Below, in pieces: positions 25,581-32,664 of a stretch of DNA of 33,172 bases. Made by a program: the position numbers and the translations under genes. Each line of letters starts with the position of its first letter. Within the stretch, counting starts at the first letter, position 1. Under the pieces are notes generated by a model. It did no database searches and was not told where the DNA came from. It worked only from the letters and a program-made list of their open reading frames with translations. This stretch comes from Acidobacteriota bacterium (GTDB lineage Bacteria > Acidobacteriota > Terriglobia > Acidiferrales > UBA7541): the NCBI GenBank assembly GCA_003223255.1, contig QHYJ01000203.1, positions 1 to 33,172 of the forward strand, in the 5' to 3' direction.

Positions 25581-26435
25581 ATGCCCGGAAACTTTGACTC
25601 TTGGGTCACGCTCACAGACCGCCAGGAAACCTACGAGCAGATCCACCAACAAACCTGGGATTTCAAGTGCCGGGAGCACGGCGCACAACGAGGCACGCCC
25701 AAAGAAGTCATCGGAGTCGCTCCTCTGGACGAAAAACCGCCTTCCACACAAAAATCCGCTTTGACGTTTGGCAACGCCATATCCACTGAGGCAACCAAGA
25801 AAACTCCTCGTTCCAGCGAGCGCATGGCTCTTCGCATTCCCATCGTGGTCTACGGTTTCACCAAGGAGCGCGGGGCGTTTCACGAAGAAACGGAAACCCA
25901 AATTGTCAATGCCAGCGGCGCCCTGGTGATGCTCAAGACCAAGCTGGCCATTGGTGATTCCGTGTTCTTGATGCAAAAAGGCAACGGCCTCGAGCAGGAA
26001 GTCCGCGTCGTCTATCTGGACCCCTACTCGGACCGTGAAACCAAAGTCGGGCTGGCCTTCAAATATCCCATCACGGATTTTTGGCGCCGGTCGCGCAAAC
26101 AGCAACGCATTCCCAAAACGCTGCGCGTGGTAGTCAGAGGGACAGATTCCCGGGGCCATCCCTTCAAGCAGACCAGCTACACCATCGACCTCAGCCAGGA
26201 TGGCGCGCGCCTCGATGGAATTGGTTTTCTTACTTCTCCGGGACAAACGATCGAAGTGCGCCGGCTCTGGCGTAAGAAGAAGTTTCGCGTGATCTGGATC
26301 GGCCACGTCGGAACCGGCGAAGCCAATCAAGTAGGCGTGTTTGGCCTGCAAAACGAGAAAGACATCTGGCGCATGGAGCTCCCCGAGGGTGAGCCCGACA
26401 AAAAACCAGGCAAGGGCAAGCCTCCGAATAAGTGA
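25581..26435 (+). CDS. Tandem PilZ-domain protein
   Basis: A 284-residue cytoplasmic protein. Residues 1-75 are polar and unassigned. Two PilZ-like domains follow. The first (about 80-170) has SERMALRIPIVVYG and a degenerate VNASGALVML. The second (about 178-265) keeps both c-di-GMP motifs: RKQQR (RxxxR) and DLSQDG (DxSxxG). By analogy the second domain should bind cyclic di-GMP. The C-terminus is Lys/Pro-rich and flexible (DKKPGKGKPPNK). The ATG at 25581 is chosen because GGGAG lies before it; the frame is open further up. It diverges from the sigma factor gene. Confidence 0.82.
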   Translation: MPGNFDSWVTLTDRQETYEQIHQQTWDFKCREHGAQRGTPKEVIGVAPLDEKPPSTQKSALTFGNAISTEATKKTPRSSERMALRIPIVVYGFTKERGAFHEETETQIVNASGALVMLKTKLAIGDSVFLMQKGNGLEQEVRVVYLDPYSDRETKVGLAFKYPITDFWRRSRKQQRIPKTLRVVVRGTDSRGHPFKQTSYTIDLSQDGARLDGIGFLTSPGQTIEVRRLWRKKKFRVIWIGHVGTGEANQVGVFGLQNEKDIWRMELPEGEPDKKPGKGKPPNK

Positions 26436-26592
26436 GTTTGCCGTTTATAATCCTCGATTCTTAGTTTTTCCCTCTTGGTCGTTCTCATTCTCATTCATCA
26501 GCTCCCTGACCCTTGGAATTCGTTGCCGCTCTTCCATTTCGGTTATCGAGTTTCAACTCTCGGTTTTGCGTTTCGTGTTTCGATTTTCGCGC

Positions 26593-27435
26593 TCAGCCGC
26601 CCTTGGGTTCCTGCCGGTACCCACCTCGGCCCGCCGCCATCTTTCTGTTCATGGCTCTAAGCACCCAAGGCATGAACCGCTCCAGAAAGACCAACGCCTT
26701 GCCATGCCCGGTAATAATGGCTTCGCGCTTTCCTCGCGCAATCGCGCTGAGAATCTGCCGCGCCGCTTTCTCGGTTGGCATCACCAACCACCCTGGAATG
26801 GAATCGTTGGCGTCTTCGTGGAATTTCCCCTGGTTGTCCACGCGGCGGATGTCACTGGCCACAAAACCGGGACTAATCAGCGTCACCTTCACTCCGGAGA
26901 GCCGCAGTTCTGGTGTAATCGAATTCGCCAGCGCGCGCACCGCAAACTTGCTCATGGCGTACGGCGATGCTCCCGCCGACGCTGTCCAACCCGAAACGCT
27001 TCCCACCATGGCGATGTTGCCTTTGTTCTTTTCGATCTCCGGAAGCGCCGCGTAAATCGTTCGCAGCACGCCAAAAACATTGGTCTCGAATTGGCGCCGG
27101 TAATCCTCGATGGAAAGTTTCTTCAACGGACTGACCACACCAAATCCGGCGTTGGCAATCACCACGTCCAACTTACCCCAGTGGCTCACCGTTTCGGCAA
27201 CAGACTTTCGCAAATCCCCGTCCTGCGTAACATCGCAGTGCACCACTAAAGGCTCCGGGTTTCCGATCTCCGCAATCTTTTGGGCCAAACCTTCCAGCCG
27301 TTCCTTACGCCGCGCGACCAGCGTCAGCTTCGCTCCCACTTGGCCCAATTGCCACGCCAACTCCTCGCCAATCCCGGACGAGGCTCCGGTAATAAGCACG
27401 GTTTTGTCCCGAAAGAACAATTGCGTCTTGTTCAT
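26593..27435 (-). CDS. Short-chain dehydrogenase/reductase (classical SDR)
   Basis: A 280-residue NAD(P)-dependent oxidoreductase. The cofactor loop is TGASSGIG (residues 16-23). An Arg-rich segment (VARRKERL) after the second strand favours NADPH. NAG is present in VVIANAGFGVV, and the catalytic Ser-Tyr-Lys set is in GSVSGWTASAGASPYAMSKFA. The C-terminus (FLERFMPWVLRAMNRKM) is hydrophobic and basic, as in SDRs that sit on membranes, so lipid or sterol-type substrates are possible; the substrate is not shown. It converges with the PilZ gene across a 157-base gap that holds no clear terminator. Upstream on its strand lies the hairpin of repeat copy 1. Confidence 0.92.
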   Translation of the reverse strand: MNKTQLFFRDKTVLITGASSGIGEELAWQLGQVGAKLTLVARRKERLEGLAQKIAEIGNPEPLVVHCDVTQDGDLRKSVAETVSHWGKLDVVIANAGFGVVSPLKKLSIEDYRRQFETNVFGVLRTIYAALPEIEKNKGNIAMVGSVSGWTASAGASPYAMSKFAVRALANSITPELRLSGVKVTLISPGFVASDIRRVDNQGKFHEDANDSIPGWLVMPTEKAARQILSAIARGKREAIITGHGKALVFLERFMPWVLRAMNRKMAAGRGGYRQEPKGG

Positions 27436-27571
27436 GCCGTTATCTTACGACAGGAAATGTCCTCTCTAGGGGCGTCGAGCTTAACGAGGACTTGTTTTTG
27501 GCAGCACAGGCTCGCCGCCGCGAAATCGGGCTTTAGAAAAAATTTCTTGCAGGCGGGTGAAAAGAAAGATT
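27436..27571. other. Upstream region of the SDR gene, no gene seen
   Basis: This stretch lies between the SDR start and repeat copy 1. On the minus strand it follows the strong hairpin of the repeat, so any SDR promoter should lie here. I see no clear consensus boxes and no coding frame of note. Confidence 0.4.
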
Positions 27572-27717
27572 TGAGGGCGCAACGGCCTTGCGACCGCTGC
27601 GCCCTCTTTCGATTGTGCCGTTAAGTCTCTTAGGCTTCCCGGCTCAATCTGGGCGGGAGATTAAACCTGGCTTTCTTCCTTGGCAAGAGAAATCTGAAAA
27701 TTCAACTGTGGAAAGCT
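27572..27717 (-). repeat. 146-bp direct repeat, copy 1; putative minus-strand structured RNA
   Basis: It is the same length as, and differs at only 8 positions from, the copy at 29133-29278 (about 95% identity, counted by eye, no gaps). Four of the eight changes cluster at 27655-27660. The minus strand begins AGCTTTCCACAGTTG and ends in a strong hairpin (27573-27606). No protein frame is kept in both copies: the minus frame open in copy 2 has a TAA here. Conservation without a shared frame, plus a wobble-paired hairpin, suggests an RNA or a DNA element rather than coding. It lies between the divergent SDR and PLP-enzyme genes. Confidence 0.8.
27573..27606 (-). terminator. GNRA-capped hairpin at the end of repeat copy 1
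   Basis: On the minus strand GAGGGCGCAGCGGTC pairs with GGCCGTTGCGCCCTC over all 15 positions (two G-U wobbles), closing the tetraloop GCAA. AAATCTTTCTTTTC follows, a broken T-tract. On the plus strand the two wobbles become A-C mismatches, so the minus strand is the one that folds. Confidence 0.65.
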
Positions 27718-27846
27718 AACGGCCTACGAAAGACACTGCCATGGTCGGCGGCACGGCCGTGCGGAGACCAAATTCGCACGATTAAGAGTTTTGGAGCAGT
27801 CGTCGAATGAGGGATGACCGTCTTTTGCGCTAATATCGAAGCGGCG

Positions 27847-29061
27847 ATGGCAACGCAGAAATCCATGCTGAACGAGTTTCCCTGGGATGAGGGCTACCGC
27901 GTGTCGGGCGTCGAAGACGCCCTTACACCTGCGCTGGTGGTATATCCAGAAAGGATTGCCTCCAACATTGCGCGCACGTTGGATCTGTTGGGCGGGGATG
28001 CGAATCGCTGGCGCGTGCACATCAAGACCGCGAAACTGGATTACACGTTGCGCATGCTCCTGGAGCGTGGAGTCCGCACTTTCAAGTGCGCAACGACGCT
28101 TGAGCTGCTAGTTGCGTGCCGCACCGGCGCGAGAGATGTGCTGTTCGCTTACCCAGCCGTGGGCGCGAATGCGCGTCGCGTGCGTGAAATTGCAAACGAG
28201 TTTCCCGCTGTGAGCATTTCCGTTTTGGCCGAAAACGAAGCGCAAGTACGGCAATGGAGAGAAAGTACGATCGGCATCTTCCTCGATATTAATCCGGGCA
28301 TGAATCGCACGGGAATCGAGCAAAGCCACAAGGACGAAGTTCTTCAGCTCGTGCGGACGGTCAGAGAAGCCGGGCTGGAGTTCCGCGGCTTGCACTACTA
28401 CGACGGGCAGTATGGCGGGCTGGAACAGCGCGAGAGAACCGCGGCTGCGCATGCGGGCTATGACCGCTTGGTGGAGGTCGCCCAGGAGATCGAGGGCAGT
28501 GGCGTGAGCGTGCCGGAGCTGATCACCGCAGGCACGCCGACGCTGCCTTGTTCGCTAGGGTATCAGGGCTTTCAGCGAAAGAAATTCGTTCATCGCGTGT
28601 CGCCGGGGACGGTTGTCTATAACGACGCTACGAGCCTCGCGCAGCTACCAGCCGGTTATGGCTTGCAACCGGCAGTACTGGTCTTAACAAGACTAGTGAG
28701 CCGGCCACGCGCAGGCCTGGCCACTTGCGATGCCGGACACAAGGCTGTCTCCGCGGATGCGGGCGTTCCCACGTGCGTAGTCCTCGGGCACGCAGAACTC
28801 ACGCCCCTCTCCCCCAGCGAAGAGCACCTGCCCATGGCGGTTGTAGGGGGAGGCACCGGACCACAGGTCGGCGACGTGCTTTATCTGCTTCCGCGCCACG
28901 TTTGTCCCACCGTGAACAACTTTGATTGCGCGCTGTTAGTAGGCAACGGCAAGATCGAATCGGTGGAGAGAGTGAGCGCCCGCGGTCGGGAGGAACCGCT
29001 GCCGCAAACACGGCCCACGACACCTTCCCTTGCGCGTCGCGCTGTTCCCGAGAAAGTGTGA
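27847..29061 (+). CDS. D-threonine aldolase/D-serine dehydratase-like PLP enzyme (alanine racemase N-fold)
   Basis: A 404-residue PLP enzyme of the metal-activated fold-type III group. The PLP lysine is Lys60 in RVHIKTAKLDYTLRMLLERG. DINPGMNRTGI and the HYYDGQYG segment lie in the barrel. ITAGTPTLPC is the phosphate-binding region. The C-terminal metal site HxC is His351/Cys353 in PRHVCPTVNNFD, with the usual SEEH before it. Known members split beta-hydroxy-D-amino acids or dehydrate D-serine; the exact substrate is open. The frame is open to an ATG at 27814, but TAATAT (27831-27836) looks like a -10 box whose start of transcription would be close to the ATG at 27847, suggesting a leaderless start. 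The Ala/Arg/Pro tail is poorly conserved. The gene is bracketed by two 146-bp direct repeats. Confidence 0.85.
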   Translation: MATQKSMLNEFPWDEGYRVSGVEDALTPALVVYPERIASNIARTLDLLGGDANRWRVHIKTAKLDYTLRMLLERGVRTFKCATTLELLVACRTGARDVLFAYPAVGANARRVREIANEFPAVSISVLAENEAQVRQWRESTIGIFLDINPGMNRTGIEQSHKDEVLQLVRTVREAGLEFRGLHYYDGQYGGLEQRERTAAAHAGYDRLVEVAQEIEGSGVSVPELITAGTPTLPCSLGYQGFQRKKFVHRVSPGTVVYNDATSLAQLPAGYGLQPAVLVLTRLVSRPRAGLATCDAGHKAVSADAGVPTCVVLGHAELTPLSPSEEHLPMAVVGGGTGPQVGDVLYLLPRHVCPTVNNFDCALLVGNGKIESVERVSARGREEPLPQTRPTTPSLARRAVPEKV

Positions 29062-29132
29062 AGGATTCCACGCGGCCGCAGGAAAGGGGGAACGGCAGCC
29101 GCCGATTCCAGGAAAAATGAGCCCAAAAAGAT

Positions 29133-29278
29133 TGAGGGCGCAACGGCCTTGCGACCGCTGCGCCCTCTTTCAATTGTGCCGTTAAGTCTTTTAGGCTTCC
29201 CGGCTCAATCTGGGCGTGACCATAAACCTGGCGTTTTTCCTTGGCAAGAGAAATCTGAAAATTCAACTGTGGAAAGCT
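29133..29278 (-). repeat. 146-bp direct repeat, copy 2; putative minus-strand structured RNA
   Basis: This is the second copy of the element at 27572-27717, in the same orientation, 1561 bases downstream and just past the PLP-enzyme gene. Similarity stops sharply at both ends. Outside the hairpin, the minus strand can also form GCCG...CGGC around AAG...CTT (within 29177-29204). On this copy the hairpin could also end the plus-strand PLP-enzyme transcript. Confidence 0.8.
29134..29167 (-). terminator. GNRA-capped hairpin terminator in repeat copy 2
   Basis: It has the same 15-bp stem and GCAA loop as copy 1. On the minus strand it is followed by AATCTTTTT, a good intrinsic-terminator tail. 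On the plus strand the outer 9 bp remain paired and CTTTC follows, so weaker termination of the PLP-enzyme transcript is also possible. Confidence 0.7.
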
Positions 29279-29377
29279 GTGCAAAAAGGCCAGGACGAAA
29301 ATCGAATTCGAAAAGCGAAAATGGCAAGGGTGTCCTTAGCCAGCCAAGCGCAAAGGGAGTCGTCCCCAGGAACGCGA

Positions 29378-29478
29378 CTCTCGGTGCGACTAGCTCATCC
29401 GAGCGGGACCCGGCAAACCGCAAGGGAAGTTTTTCATGGAAACATTTCTGGGGGTTGCCTCGTACCTCTAACCGAGAG
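29378..29478 (+). promoter_or_regulatory. Possible structured 5' leader of the 29548 gene
   Basis: CTCTCGGT (29378-29385) and ACCGAGAG (29471-29478) form a perfect 8-bp closing stem. Inside it are GCTC/GAGC with loop ATCC (29393-29404) and GGCAAACC (29412-29419) pairing with GGTTGCC (29453-29459) around one bulged A. This nesting lies 70 bases before the start of the gene at 29548. It does not match any riboswitch consensus that I know. Together with repeat copy 2 it accounts for most of the 29062-29547 gap. Confidence 0.35.
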
Positions 29479-29547
29479 CCGGGGGTGAAAAGGATGGGTT
29501 CACAGCCGCGCGTCACCTGTTAGAAACACCGGCCAGGAGGCTAGCCT

Positions 29548-30189
29548 ATGTCCTACACGAATCGCGGGTTCATCACCGTTACCGTGCTTCTAACCGCAGC
29601 CGCTCCGCTGCTTGCGCCTGTGGGATTGCGGGCGCAAGCCCCATCGACACCAGCAAAGGCTGCACAATCAACGAGTTCCGCACCAGCAGAAAAGGGCGAG
29701 CGCTGGTTGCACGTGCGCGCGAACTGCACGGACGGCAAGGGGGGGACGGTTCGCGTAAACGTGCCGCTCGAAATGGCGGAAAAGGTGCTCCCCGCGGTTA
29801 ATCATGACCGGCTGCACAACGGCAAGGTCCGAATTGATTCCTCGGACGTCAACGACGTGGACCTGTTCGCCTTGATGGACGCTATCCGCACGGCCAAGGA
29901 CGGCGAATACGTTACCGTGCAGAGCAAGGAAAACGATGTGCGCGTGGCCAAGGAAGGCAATCACCTCATCGTCCACGTACTGGACAAGGGCGGGTCGAAG
30001 AAGTCCCAGGTCGAAGTGAAAGTGCCGATGAAAGTGATCGAGGCATTGCTCTCCGCGGGCAAGGATGAATTGGACTTGGTGGCCGCCCTTCATGCGCTGG
30101 GCGCGCAAGGTGATACGGAGCTGGTTTCCGTGAAGGATAGCGAAAACACGGTAAAGGTCTGGCTGGATTCCAAGAGCGTCGCAGAGTAA
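29548..30189 (+). CDS. Secreted protein with two related domains, unknown function
   Basis: A 213-residue exported protein: signal peptide (VTVLLTAAAPLLAPVGLRAQ), a Thr/Ser/Ala/Pro linker (residues 31-48), then two alpha/beta units. The first (about 52-128) reads LHVRANCTDGKGGTVRVNVPLEMAEKV...EYVTVQSKENDVRVAKEG. The second (about 130-210) reads VEVKVPMKVIEALLSAGKDELD...LVSVKDSENTVKVWLDSK. Each unit has a V-V-VP strand, a helix and a strand pair ending in V(S/T)V+ followed by V+V. The same pattern is in the next gene. AGGAGG precedes the ATG. I do not recognise a named family with certainty. Confidence 0.8.
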   Translation: MSYTNRGFITVTVLLTAAAPLLAPVGLRAQAPSTPAKAAQSTSSAPAEKGERWLHVRANCTDGKGGTVRVNVPLEMAEKVLPAVNHDRLHNGKVRIDSSDVNDVDLFALMDAIRTAKDGEYVTVQSKENDVRVAKEGNHLIVHVLDKGGSKKSQVEVKVPMKVIEALLSAGKDELDLVAALHALGAQGDTELVSVKDSENTVKVWLDSKSVAE

Positions 30190-30225
30190 AAGCTCATAAG
30201 GGCGCTGGAACACCCAGGAGGCGAC

Positions 30226-30663
30226 ATGATGCTGCTGGCGAAGGCTGCTCTCGGGATAGGTGGAACGCTTGTGCTGGCGGGCGCATACACGTTTCGCGAA
30301 GGCGTGATTCGCGTGGACGTGGACGAATCCCGCGCGGGCGGTTCTCACATTCACATGTGGGTGCCCGCGGCAGTAGTGCCGATGACCATGCATTTCGTGC
30401 CGAAACACCACCTCAAGGATGCGGCGGAGCAAGCAAGAGAGTTTCTGCCTGTAGTACACGCATTGTTCAAAGAATTGAAGAAATTTCCGGAAACGGACTT
30501 TGTGGAAGTGAAAGATGACAACGAGCACGTGCAAATTCGCACGCGCGCCGGGAAATTGCAAATCGACGTGGATTCGCCCGACGAAAACGTGCATCTGCTG
30601 GTGCCCCTAAGCACGCTGGATGACGTGGTGGATGAACTCGAAGCAAGTGCACCCGGAGTCTGA
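30226..30663 (+). CDS. Small protein related to the upstream secreted protein
   Basis: A 145-residue protein. The N-terminal segment MMLLAKAALGIGGTLVLAGAYTF is a signal peptide or membrane anchor. The rest resembles the domain of the preceding gene: IHMWVPAAVVP, a helix with DAAEQAREFLPVVHALFKEL, then DFVEVKDDNEHVQIRTRAGKL and a final VHLLVPLSTLDDVVDELE. The shared VEVKD-V-I pattern suggests a paralogous domain. AGGAGG lies before the first ATG. The gene begins 36 bases after its neighbour, so they form an operon. Function unknown. Confidence 0.78.
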   Translation: MMLLAKAALGIGGTLVLAGAYTFREGVIRVDVDESRAGGSHIHMWVPAAVVPMTMHFVPKHHLKDAAEQAREFLPVVHALFKELKKFPETDFVEVKDDNEHVQIRTRAGKLQIDVDSPDENVHLLVPLSTLDDVVDELEASAPGV

Positions 30664-30704
30664 GAAGAATCCTCAAGAATCAATCTTCGCAGGCAATAGG
30701 AAAC

Positions 30705-31496
30705 TCACGCAGGGCCGCCAGCTTCTTTTATCGCTGCTTGGTAATACGCCTCTTCGAGGACCGCTTCTTTCTTCCACTGCGCGCGTTCCAAAATCCCGCG
30801 GCAATTTTCGATCATTTTCGGATGACCGCATAAGTACGCGGTGGTCTCGTTGGGCCGCAGTCGCCATGCCTCGGTGTATTTTCGCAAAAGGTCCTCCACC
30901 CGCCCTGTCTCGCCGCTCCAGTGCGGCTCGTCCCAGGGCCGGCTTACTGTGGGGACATACGTGAACCAAGGCGCTTCGGAACCGTAGCGCTCGAGCTCCT
31001 CGCGATAACCGAATTCAAAAGAGCGACTGGCACCCTGAAGGCAAAAGAACCTGTGTTTCCCGGGCATCGGACTCGTCCCGCTGTTCCAATCGCGGTAAAC
31101 CGTGCGCACGTAGCTTACAAATGGGGCGACACCGGTGACCGTAGAAAGGAGCAGGTGGTTTGTGCGGCCGCTGCGCAGATCAATCAGAAAGCGGCCCTTG
31201 GCGACTTTGCGGCAAAGGAGCGCGCCGCCCGATTTTAACTGAAAAAGACTTGGCGTCAAGCCACCCTTGGGAACCAGTTCGACAAAAAATTCGAGCGCCT
31301 CTTCGTAAGGAGACGAGGCCATAGAGTAGGGACGCTCGGTTCGAACGCCGCCTTGCTCAAGTCCAAGCGTGGCATACTGTCCGGCTCGATATTCGAAAGG
31401 TCCGCCGGGATCGATGCGTAGAATGCACAAATCCCGAGAAACATCCCGGCGATCAAGAACGCGTGCCTGATAGTATTTGTCCGGAGAGCGAGTCAT
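30705..31496 (-). CDS. Ferredoxin-NADP reductase-type flavoprotein
   Basis: A 263-residue FAD/NAD(P) oxidoreductase of the FNR/Fpr family, which moves electrons between NADPH and ferredoxin or flavodoxin. The FAD-binding RxYS motif is Arg55-Ser58 in ERPYSMASSP. The NADP-binding motif is STVTGVAPFVSYVRT (about 119-133), where most relatives have GTGxxP. The C-terminal nucleotide loop is YLCGHPKMIENCRGIL. Length agrees with bacterial Fpr (about 250-265). The ATG at 31496 has no clear Shine-Dalgarno sequence. It lies 49 bases after the permease gene on the same strand. No ferredoxin gene is next to it. Confidence 0.9.
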   Translation of the reverse strand: MTRSPDKYYQARVLDRRDVSRDLCILRIDPGGPFEYRAGQYATLGLEQGGVRTERPYSMASSPYEEALEFFVELVPKGGLTPSLFQLKSGGALLCRKVAKGRFLIDLRSGRTNHLLLSTVTGVAPFVSYVRTVYRDWNSGTSPMPGKHRFFCLQGASRSFEFGYREELERYGSEAPWFTYVPTVSRPWDEPHWSGETGRVEDLLRKYTEAWRLRPNETTAYLCGHPKMIENCRGILERAQWKKEAVLEEAYYQAAIKEAGGPA

Positions 31497-31545
31497 CTGC
31501 GGGAGCTTCTATGGGGCAGCCAACTTTTGCCGCCGAAGTGAAACG

Positions 31546-32664
31546 CTATTCGTACGCCAACGCGACGACTGGATCGTAGGTCGCGGCGCGGAAAGCAGGA
31601 TACAGTGCGCCCGCCGCGGCCCCGATCAACGCAAGCGCAATCGCAGAGAAAATCCAGGGCGTGGTAATGAGGACCGGCAGGTCGGGCTTGGTCTGCTTCA
31701 AGATGACTTGGGTTAAAAAGCTAAGTCCAATTCCAAGGCCAGTCCCGAAAAGAGCAAGGATGAACGTCTCCGTGAGGAGCATACGAACAATGTCAAAACG
31801 GGAAAAACCCAAAGCTTTCAGAATGCCAATTTCACGCGTGCGCTCCATAACCATGGTGTGCATATTGAGCAGAACGACGATAAAGCTGATGACGATGCCA
31901 AGCGCCACCATCGTGCGGGTGAACGGGCGTAGCTGCGGCAAATTGGAAGAATTCATGAGCGAGACGTATTCCGCAAGAGAACGAATGCTGTACTGGGGCA
32001 ACAATTTCGCGAGTTGCGCGCGCGCTGCATCTGTATCTCCTCTGCTACGCACATAGAACATGGAGACGCGCTTCTCCGCCCCGGCAATTTGCTGCGCCGT
32101 GCGAATGGGAATGAAAAAGCGCGCACCTTTGCCGTGGGCCACGATGCCGCACACGGTGAACTCATGGTTCAACAAAGTGATGTGGCTGCCGACCTTTAGT
32201 TGACGGGTTTGCGCAATGATGTCGTCGGCAATCACTTCGTCAGGCCCTTGGAAGGGCCGGCCATCGCGAAACAAAAAGCCCTTGCTGAGCGCGTTGAAGC
32301 GCTGGTAATCAATCCCGTAAACCATAACTAAGCTCTTTGGTTCTGTGAGGATAACCGTAGGCGCCACTTCGTCCACACTGCTCACGCTGGCAATTTGATC
32401 CCCAAGCGACTCCGGCATGACGGCGCTCGAGAAAGCAAAAAAGATCGAAGAGTTCGGCGGCTGCACCAAAATGTCCGCGCCCACGCCTTCCACGCGTTTT
32501 CCCCATTCGGAAATGACTCCGGAAGTGAGACCCACAACCATCAAAACCAGAATCACTTGGATAGCGATGGCAATGACGCTCAGAAAGCTCCGCAGCGGAC
32601 GCGCCGTGATGCTGCCCCAGAACATTTGGACCAGTGAAAAAGGTCCTTCGTAAGTTTCGTCCAT
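31546..32664 (-). CDS. MacB/FtsX-type ABC transporter permease
   Basis: A 372-residue inner-membrane protein. The N-terminal anchor (RSFLSVIAIAIQVILVLMVVGLTSG) is followed by an extracytoplasmic MacB-PCD domain (about 55-240) and a C-terminal FtsX bundle with three segments (MVALGIVISFIVVLLNM; LLTETFILALFGTGLGIGLSF; IFSAIALALIGAAAGALYPA). MERTREIGILKALGFSRFDI is the usual coupling region between TM2 and TM3. This fold takes part in mechanotransmission or export of lipids, peptides or toxins. The partner ATPase is not in the window: the gene upstream on the same strand is a different family, and downstream is the flavoprotein. The ATPase must be elsewhere. Confidence 0.9.
   Translation of the reverse strand: MDETYEGPFSLVQMFWGSITARPLRSFLSVIAIAIQVILVLMVVGLTSGVISEWGKRVEGVGADILVQPPNSSIFFAFSSAVMPESLGDQIASVSSVDEVAPTVILTEPKSLVMVYGIDYQRFNALSKGFLFRDGRPFQGPDEVIADDIIAQTRQLKVGSHITLLNHEFTVCGIVAHGKGARFFIPIRTAQQIAGAEKRVSMFYVRSRGDTDAARAQLAKLLPQYSIRSLAEYVSLMNSSNLPQLRPFTRTMVALGIVISFIVVLLNMHTMVMERTREIGILKALGFSRFDIVRMLLTETFILALFGTGLGIGLSFLTQVILKQTKPDLPVLITTPWIFSAIALALIGAAAGALYPAFRAATYDPVVALAYE

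Follow-up and report, generated by a model that had tools for sequence, protein, structure and literature searches.

A predicted family of free-standing small RNA genes in soil acidobacteria, occurring in short and apparently multi-arm forms

CsrA is the best-known protein titrated by RNAs. The RNAs of the CsrB family (CsrB, CsrC and RsmX, RsmY, RsmZ) are encoded by free-standing genes and occur in several copies or repeat their motifs within one RNA, according to the part of PMC4211561 that deals with them. The same part of this source covers sibling small RNAs such as Qrr, which are encoded by small genes that are often present as several scattered, similar copies per genome. GOLLD, ROOL and OLE, by contrast in size, are large and highly structured RNAs, described without an assigned function in PMC12286853. 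A literature search limited to titles and the first lines of abstracts, and covering few papers from subscription journals, returned no description of an acidobacterial RNA of the kind reported here.

This locus lies in a stretch of 33,172 nucleotides (referred to here as the window), which corresponds to positions 1 to 33,172 of contig QHYJ01000203.1 from an acidobacterial genome (GCA_003223255.1). The initial annotation had pointed out two copies of equal length that differ at 8 of 146 positions, and a repeat search and a count of bases agree with it: the pair spans 27571-27717 and 29132-29278 (147 nt each, 95% identical, spacing 1561), with 8 differences in 146 bases. Judged by its sequence, each repeat is predicted to be a complete, free-standing small RNA gene on the minus strand, with its own sigma-70-type promoter and its own intrinsic terminator.

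In copy 1, the predicted small RNA occupies 27563..27651 on the minus strand. Its start, near 27651, has been placed from the spacing to the -10 element and from a CAGATTG sequence conserved in relatives, and its end falls at about 27563-27560. The RNA opens with the 5' hairpin A, or handle, which runs from GATTGAGCCG to CGGCACAATC (27611..27649, minus strand) and was delimited from the RNAalifold consensus of 28 copies and from pair counts. Hairpin B (27573..27606, minus strand), a predicted intrinsic terminator of 15 bp with a GCAA loop, comes next and precedes a T-rich tract at 27560-27569. The promoter consists of the -35 element TTGCCA (27681..27686, minus strand), which reads TTGCCA or TTGACG in most relatives, and, 17 bp from it, the -10 element TAATCT (27658..27663, minus strand), which is replaced in relatives by TACTCT, TATCTT or similar sequences. 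A single box, TTTCCACA (27707..27714, minus strand), remains upstream; alignments with relatives identify it as the third of a series in which boxes 1 and 2 have been lost.

Copy 2, also on the minus strand, repeats this arrangement: the predicted RNA at 29125..29212 (start near 29212, end near 29125), hairpin A at 29172..29210 (again from the RNAalifold consensus and pair counts), the 15-bp hairpin B with its GCAA loop as predicted intrinsic terminator at 29134..29167, a T tract at 29125-29131, the -35 element TTGCCA at 29242..29247 and the -10 element TATGGT at 29219..29224, 17 bp away. Two boxes, TTTTTGCACA and TTTCCACA, stand 10 bp apart upstream (29268..29287, minus strand), one fewer than in most relatives. 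The unit is about 88 nt long and is formed by a 5' handle hairpin and a GCAA-capped terminator. The gene between the copies (27814..29061, plus strand) encodes a protein with alanine-racemase N-terminal and D-serine dehydratase domains (Pfam PF14031 and PF01168), and a short-chain dehydrogenase (PF00106) is encoded at 26593..27435 on the minus strand.

Six of the eight differences between the copies lie within or adjoining the -10 element and the promoter spacer (27656-27675). The other two, at 27611 and 27629, are inside the RNA; the former turns a G-C pair into a G-U pair, and the latter is a loop position. The sharp ends noted earlier for the repeat are present, but the one at 27717/29278 falls within the array of upstream boxes of the promoter, and its sharpness is due to the array having been cut back in both window copies. 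Accordingly, alignments show a longer repeat unit in the relatives than in the window.

Among 31 aligned copies, 28 share one order of elements: up to three TNCACA boxes, a -35 element, about 17 bp, a -10 element, CAGATTG, hairpin A, hairpin B and a T tract. The alignment (A1) was built on these 28, leaving out three multi-unit forms (L039-L041) whose promoters lie further upstream. The promoter architecture is nearly invariant across 41 aligned loci, and most relatives hold three TNCACA boxes spaced by 10 bp, with exceptions of 11 bp (L003) and 9 bp (L091). The -35 and -10 elements are assigned to the sigma-70 type by their likeness to its consensus sequences. A coding unit was considered and rejected, given that a closed frame of at least 8 codons, counting ATG and GTG starts, appears in only 1 of 34 short RNAs.

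The minus strand had been described as ending in a 15-bp stem with a GCAA loop followed by T-rich sequence, and this holds at both copies. The two G-U pairs of the stem, from which the minus strand had been proposed as the RNA strand, have also been found, and the asymmetry is general: of 34 distinct short relatives, 32 have a better fold on the sense strand than on the antisense strand. Hairpins A and B were predicted by RNAalifold with no structure supplied. The resulting A+B structure has 95.5% of 754 cells paired and exceeds its slid versions. It contains five two-sided pair changes (four in hairpin B and one in hairpin A), a number reached by 4 of 500 shuffles, and its covariation score of 0.137 was reached by 3 of 500; the measure based on further pair types was not significant for this structure (81 of 500 shuffles).

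The strongest evidence for a functional gene comes from four loci that are common to 3-6 genomes and were matched through their neighbouring genes. At these loci, mean pairwise identity is 0.83-0.89 in the RNA and 0.68-0.80 in the 88-nt promoter, while the flanks, at 0.47-0.61, are near their shuffled controls (0.49-0.51), with single flank pairs of up to 0.75. Because promoter and RNA are conserved and the flanks are not, the unit probably behaves as a functional gene.

No match to Rfam 15 was obtained in the window at gathering score, the best sub-threshold hit at copy 1 having 20.4 bits where the cut-off is 55. When 20 loci with relatives were scanned, the single match was to Acido-Lenti-1, outside the RNA (RF01687, 45.3 bits, L091:1712-1757, on the other strand and downstream of a long RNA). 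Identity with an Rfam family was hence rejected, as no covariance model matches the RNA at gathering score. The proposal of an unnamed small structured RNA made in the initial annotation is consequently supported by the placement of promoter and terminator, the lack of an Rfam match, the covariation and the conservation confined to the unit.

A search of the host and of related genomes with the 146-bp unit, as had been suggested, finds it in both. BLASTN detects five copies in the window's genome, with E values from 1.1e-84 for the query to 1.6e-7 for the weakest, which excludes a chance pair; these five loci correspond to the two or more highly similar RNA genes per genome by which sibling small RNAs are recognised. 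With the same program, 12 of 60 other genomes match, all of them of the window's genus. An RNA model (R1) matches 29 of 61 relatives, all congeners (29 of 36). In a sample of the class, R1 matches 25 of 250 genomes, namely 18 congeners, six members of the family and one marginal case. A match of R1 in G123 (E 8.8e-4) was set aside, since inspection by eye of L092 showed a terminator behind an apparent coding gene.

A second model (R2), which joins promoter and hairpin A, matches 40 of the 89 genomes in the window's taxonomic family, made up of 30 among the 36 congeners and 10 among the 53 remaining genomes. The match in one of these 10 (G077, E 2.1e-4) is weak: the boxes are there, but no recognisable RNA, and the contig breaks off shortly afterwards. 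Six of the 36 congeners have no R2 match, so that the RNA is not detected genus-wide, and G235, with an R1 match near a contig end and none to R2, stands outside the tally of 40. In the class sample, R2 matches 34 of 299 genomes, all within the window's taxonomic family; in a sample of the phylum, none of the 395 genomes besides the window's own appears among the matches listed. Searches over more than 40 genomes used stricter filters, by which weak matches are lost. The conserved RNA stretch is also found in 12 stretches of the Acidobacteria gp2 genomes AA88, AA89, AA90, AA92, AA93 and AA95.

Relatives also encode a long RNA of 160-535 nt, which shares its promoter, 5' end and terminator with the short form. 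On the basis of these common parts, of the length classes, of a locus that both forms occupy and of a tree (all described below), long and short forms are considered one family. RNA lengths follow approximately 88 + k x 75 nt, with k from 0 to 6 and none seen with k = 3. The 62 distinct RNAs collected fall into classes of 83-89 (34 RNAs), 160-165 (3), 234-236 (5), 385-392 (7), 440-462 (7), 483 (1) and 511-535 nt (5), which gives 34, 3, 5, 0, 7, 7 and 5 RNAs for k = 0 to 6 plus the one at 483; the top two arm classes (440-462 and 511-535) are broader. This census was made by pattern; G004, G238 and G258 also have long RNAs, which the pattern missed and which were seen by eye.

Folding of the long RNAs predicts that the 5' end pairs with the stretch before the terminator, forming the handle, and that the extra units are arms. 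Judged by mean pair probabilities, 26 of the 30 long RNAs prefer this end-to-end handle and the other four a local hairpin, a further RNA (L073) being nearly even. A structure common to 22 arms, taken from ten RNAs that belong to one group, has 93.3% of its cells paired and seven two-sided pair changes (reached by 3 of 500 shuffles), with a covariation score that none of the 500 shuffles reached and a weak result for further pair types (49 of 500), figures to be read with the fact that the structure was derived from the alignment on which it was tested and that the arms, split by pattern with some missed, were those 22 that were aligned. When RNAalifold was run on the 4-arm group, paralogous arms paired with each other and no clean star was obtained. 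Seen by eye, the arm tips resemble UAAC, UCAC or GCAA; tetraloops of the UMAC and GNRA types have a common fold. The arm stems repeat a motif, CCG-NN-AAG opposite CUU-NN-CGG, which is variable, and some arms of L172 pair straight through. From these models, each larger relative seems to be assembled from similar arms, always in whole numbers, and the window RNA is predicted to be the zero-arm form of the long RNA.

By our reading of the 40 genomes with R2 matches, 10 hold only short forms, 27 only long forms, two are mixed (G027 and G033) and one is unassigned (G077). The 30 congeners comprise 19 with long forms only, nine with short forms only and two with both, and the 10 genomes of other genera eight with long forms, one with a short form (G285) and the unassigned one. 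Short and long forms are not strict alternatives, because G027 has both; G033 encodes one short RNA and three 1-arm RNAs. The short form is present in 3-5 copies per genome in seven of the 10 short-form genomes, with a single copy only in G016, G022 and G285, and the long form as one intact gene per genome. The short form of G285 (L128), a 71% complete genome of another genus, groups with the RNAs of the window's genus, which may reflect either transfer or contamination. Decayed copies of promoter or RNA (L241, L242, L243 and L245) occur in genomes with an intact long or 1-arm form; the long-form genomes with a decayed copy are G011, G017 and G270.

The long form is likely the ancestral state, as far as sequence comparison can tell. 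In G011 and G017, the long RNA adjoins the same genes as window copy 2 (clusters c3, c9, c10 and c13; 29548-32664 in the window), and short copies occupy further loci common to several genomes. In a tree of 62 rows and 171 columns, the label short requires two changes against 20.7 in shuffles, and long forms lie on the root side, in a topology with many weak forks, with an outgroup that no single branch separates from the rest and with a long branch that places four long RNAs among the short forms. As gene conversion would give, some copies of one genome cluster together in this tree. Recombination between RNA copies is also suggested by a cluster c26 gene that is elsewhere in other genomes and sits between two RNA copies in G032 (L155 and L158 are the loci of G025 and G032 where it has this position, with different surroundings).

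A search for the exact triple TNCACA array gives 32 occurrences, spread over 17 of 22 congeners, and none in 14 other genomes, against two occurrences of a reversed control. Of these arrays, 27 are found at an RNA gene (one of them the decayed copy at G017:C14), three (two overlapping) before an orphan gene and two elsewhere; the latter, L208 (G000:C376:4236) and L205 (G006:C99:55968), may be due to chance or mark further targets. The orphan gene encodes a protein, 80-89 aa long and basic at its start, that is present in 14 of 46 genomes, all of the window's genus (L219-L234), and has no sequence match in Pfam, NCBIfam, PHROGs or PDB. The window's genome has its copy at C146:2820-3062 (L230), and in G014 and G023 the gene is on the same contig as the RNA, 3-5 kb away. 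There were 16 matches to this protein, of which 13 were inspected for boxes and seven aligned; at least one TNCACA lies within 150 nt upstream in 12 of the 13, the control being 0.094 per 150 nt. A regulator binding these in-phase boxes might control transcription of the RNA. Tandem repeats about one helical turn apart suit PhoB/OmpR-type regulators. TNCACA is also the core of the DnaA box TTWTNCACA, as given in PMC5835720, and TTTTGCACA fits this box.

Regarding function, the explanation we prefer, to which a probability of about 0.5 is assigned, is that of a family of RNA genes that act in trans and bind a protein, with the dose set through copies or arms and the window RNA as the zero-arm form. 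The RNA would bind, and so titrate or scaffold, a protein recognising the repeated stem motif, and the number of binding sites, or dose, would be set by gene copies in the short form and by arms in the long form. Action in trans is likely because the genes adjoining the RNA loci are unrelated: the 20 neighbour proteins scanned are enzymes, transporters and proteins with no assigned role. Titration of CsrA was rejected, since CsrA (PF02599) is found in 0 of 23 congeners and in 2 of 37 genomes overall, the control being positive in 3 of 14 known genomes. Hfq (PF17209) at E<1e-20 likewise has no match in any of the 23 congeners, whereas 13 of 14 other genomes of the order and class have one (E<=2.1e-22), and a divergent Hfq-like match appears in 21 of the 23 (E 6.7e-7 to 4.8e-4), five of them over the Pfam cut-off. 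With neither CsrA nor a strong Hfq in these congeners, the RNA may depend on other proteins, and protein binding is therefore favoured over pairing by sibling RNAs, although both the protein-binding function with its dose logic and sibling pairing are things that we infer. A bolder version, which we regard as rather doubtful, would make the number of binding sites digital, given by k arms, alike in fold and about 75 nt each, on one star-shaped RNA or else by a set of zero-arm genes, two states between which lineages change, with the orphan protein of 80-89 aa as candidate partner and a shared regulator that is perhaps DnaA.

Sibling small RNAs, near-identical and redundantly pairing their A-rich loop with mRNAs as Qrr do, are the main competitor, possible but clearly less probable than protein binding. 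Four to five scattered similar copies per genome are the Qrr pattern of several vibrios in the part of PMC4211561 cited above, short forms conserve the first stem and some of the loop, and the grouping of some copies by genome in the tree is also in keeping with siblings. However, the loop becomes a multi-arm junction of varying sequence in the predicted long form, so that no single pairing seed is seen to be conserved across the family. The lack of a strong Hfq match in 23 congeners makes a classical Hfq-dependent RNA unlikely, even with divergent matches in 21 of them; it argues against that class and not against pairing itself. A mobile or parasitic repeat of the MITE or REP kind, with an incidental promoter and terminator, is improbable. 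It would account for several copies per genome, the decayed copies, the changing surroundings of the c26 gene in G025 and G032 and the similar short copy in another genus (G285), but up to six genomes keep the copies at the same loci, where conservation is confined to promoter and RNA, there is no inverted repeat of at least 20 nt in 26000-31000, no transposase family is represented among the 20 neighbour proteins scanned, and homology between copies is enough to explain recombination. The option of a mobile RNA element raised at the outset is weakened by these shared loci and by the lack of an inverted repeat of that length in this interval. The phage and plasmid collections gave no match either, and a phage or plasmid repeat was rejected on this ground.

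The two explanations that look to the immediate surroundings fare worse still. A cis-acting leader or attenuator of the downstream gene could be imagined at copy 1, which ends in a terminator about 130 nt upstream of the short-chain dehydrogenase gene (26593-27435) on the same strand, but the gene downstream of copy 2 (27814-29061, plus strand) is oriented towards it, and the neighbouring genes differ between loci where the RNA sequence is kept; such a role is very improbable. That the repeats are a functionless by-product of local gene duplication has a negligible probability. Although the two window copies, spaced by 1561 bp, have a single gene between them, further copies are found elsewhere in the genome, R2 matches 29 further congeners, and promoter and RNA are conserved next to flanks at control identity. 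A unit restricted to a local duplication and lacking compensatory changes, the outcome that would have spoken against the initial proposal, is at odds with the copies of other genomes and with the covarying pairs.

This predicted RNA family of soil acidobacteria, undescribed so far, has a promoter and an RNA that are conserved and stems that covary, and it is an addition to a phylum in which, within the scope of the literature search, little RNA work was found. Unusually, the RNAs of related species differ in length by multiples of a unit of about 75 nt, of which they contain 0 to 6, and fewer units tend to accompany more gene copies, which offers a natural experiment on the number of binding sites versus the number of genes as the dose setter of a regulatory RNA. 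Compared with the described families, Acido-1 and Acido-Lenti-1, named initially for comparison, match the RNA neither at gathering score nor in an E<=10 scan of copy 1, the likeness to Acido-Lenti-1 being that it is also present in the window's taxonomic family (at L091). The new family resembles CsrB, CsrC and RsmX-Y-Z in its free-standing genes and in the alternative of several copies or of motifs repeated within one RNA. It differs from them in a host genus with no CsrA match (0 of 23 congeners), in a repeated motif that, by eye, is NGAAG in a stem, with GGA in some units only, and in units that seem to be closed by an end-to-end handle and to come in whole numbers. With Qrr and other siblings it has in common the small RNA genes in several scattered, similar copies; in contrast, one long multi-unit RNA replaces the copies in relatives, and the 23 congeners have no strong Hfq match. 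Its long form recalls GOLLD, ROOL and OLE in being sizeable, highly structured and with no function assigned, from which it is set apart by the lack of an Rfam match, a length of 160-535 nt, a variable number of units and a zero-unit form that is a small RNA.
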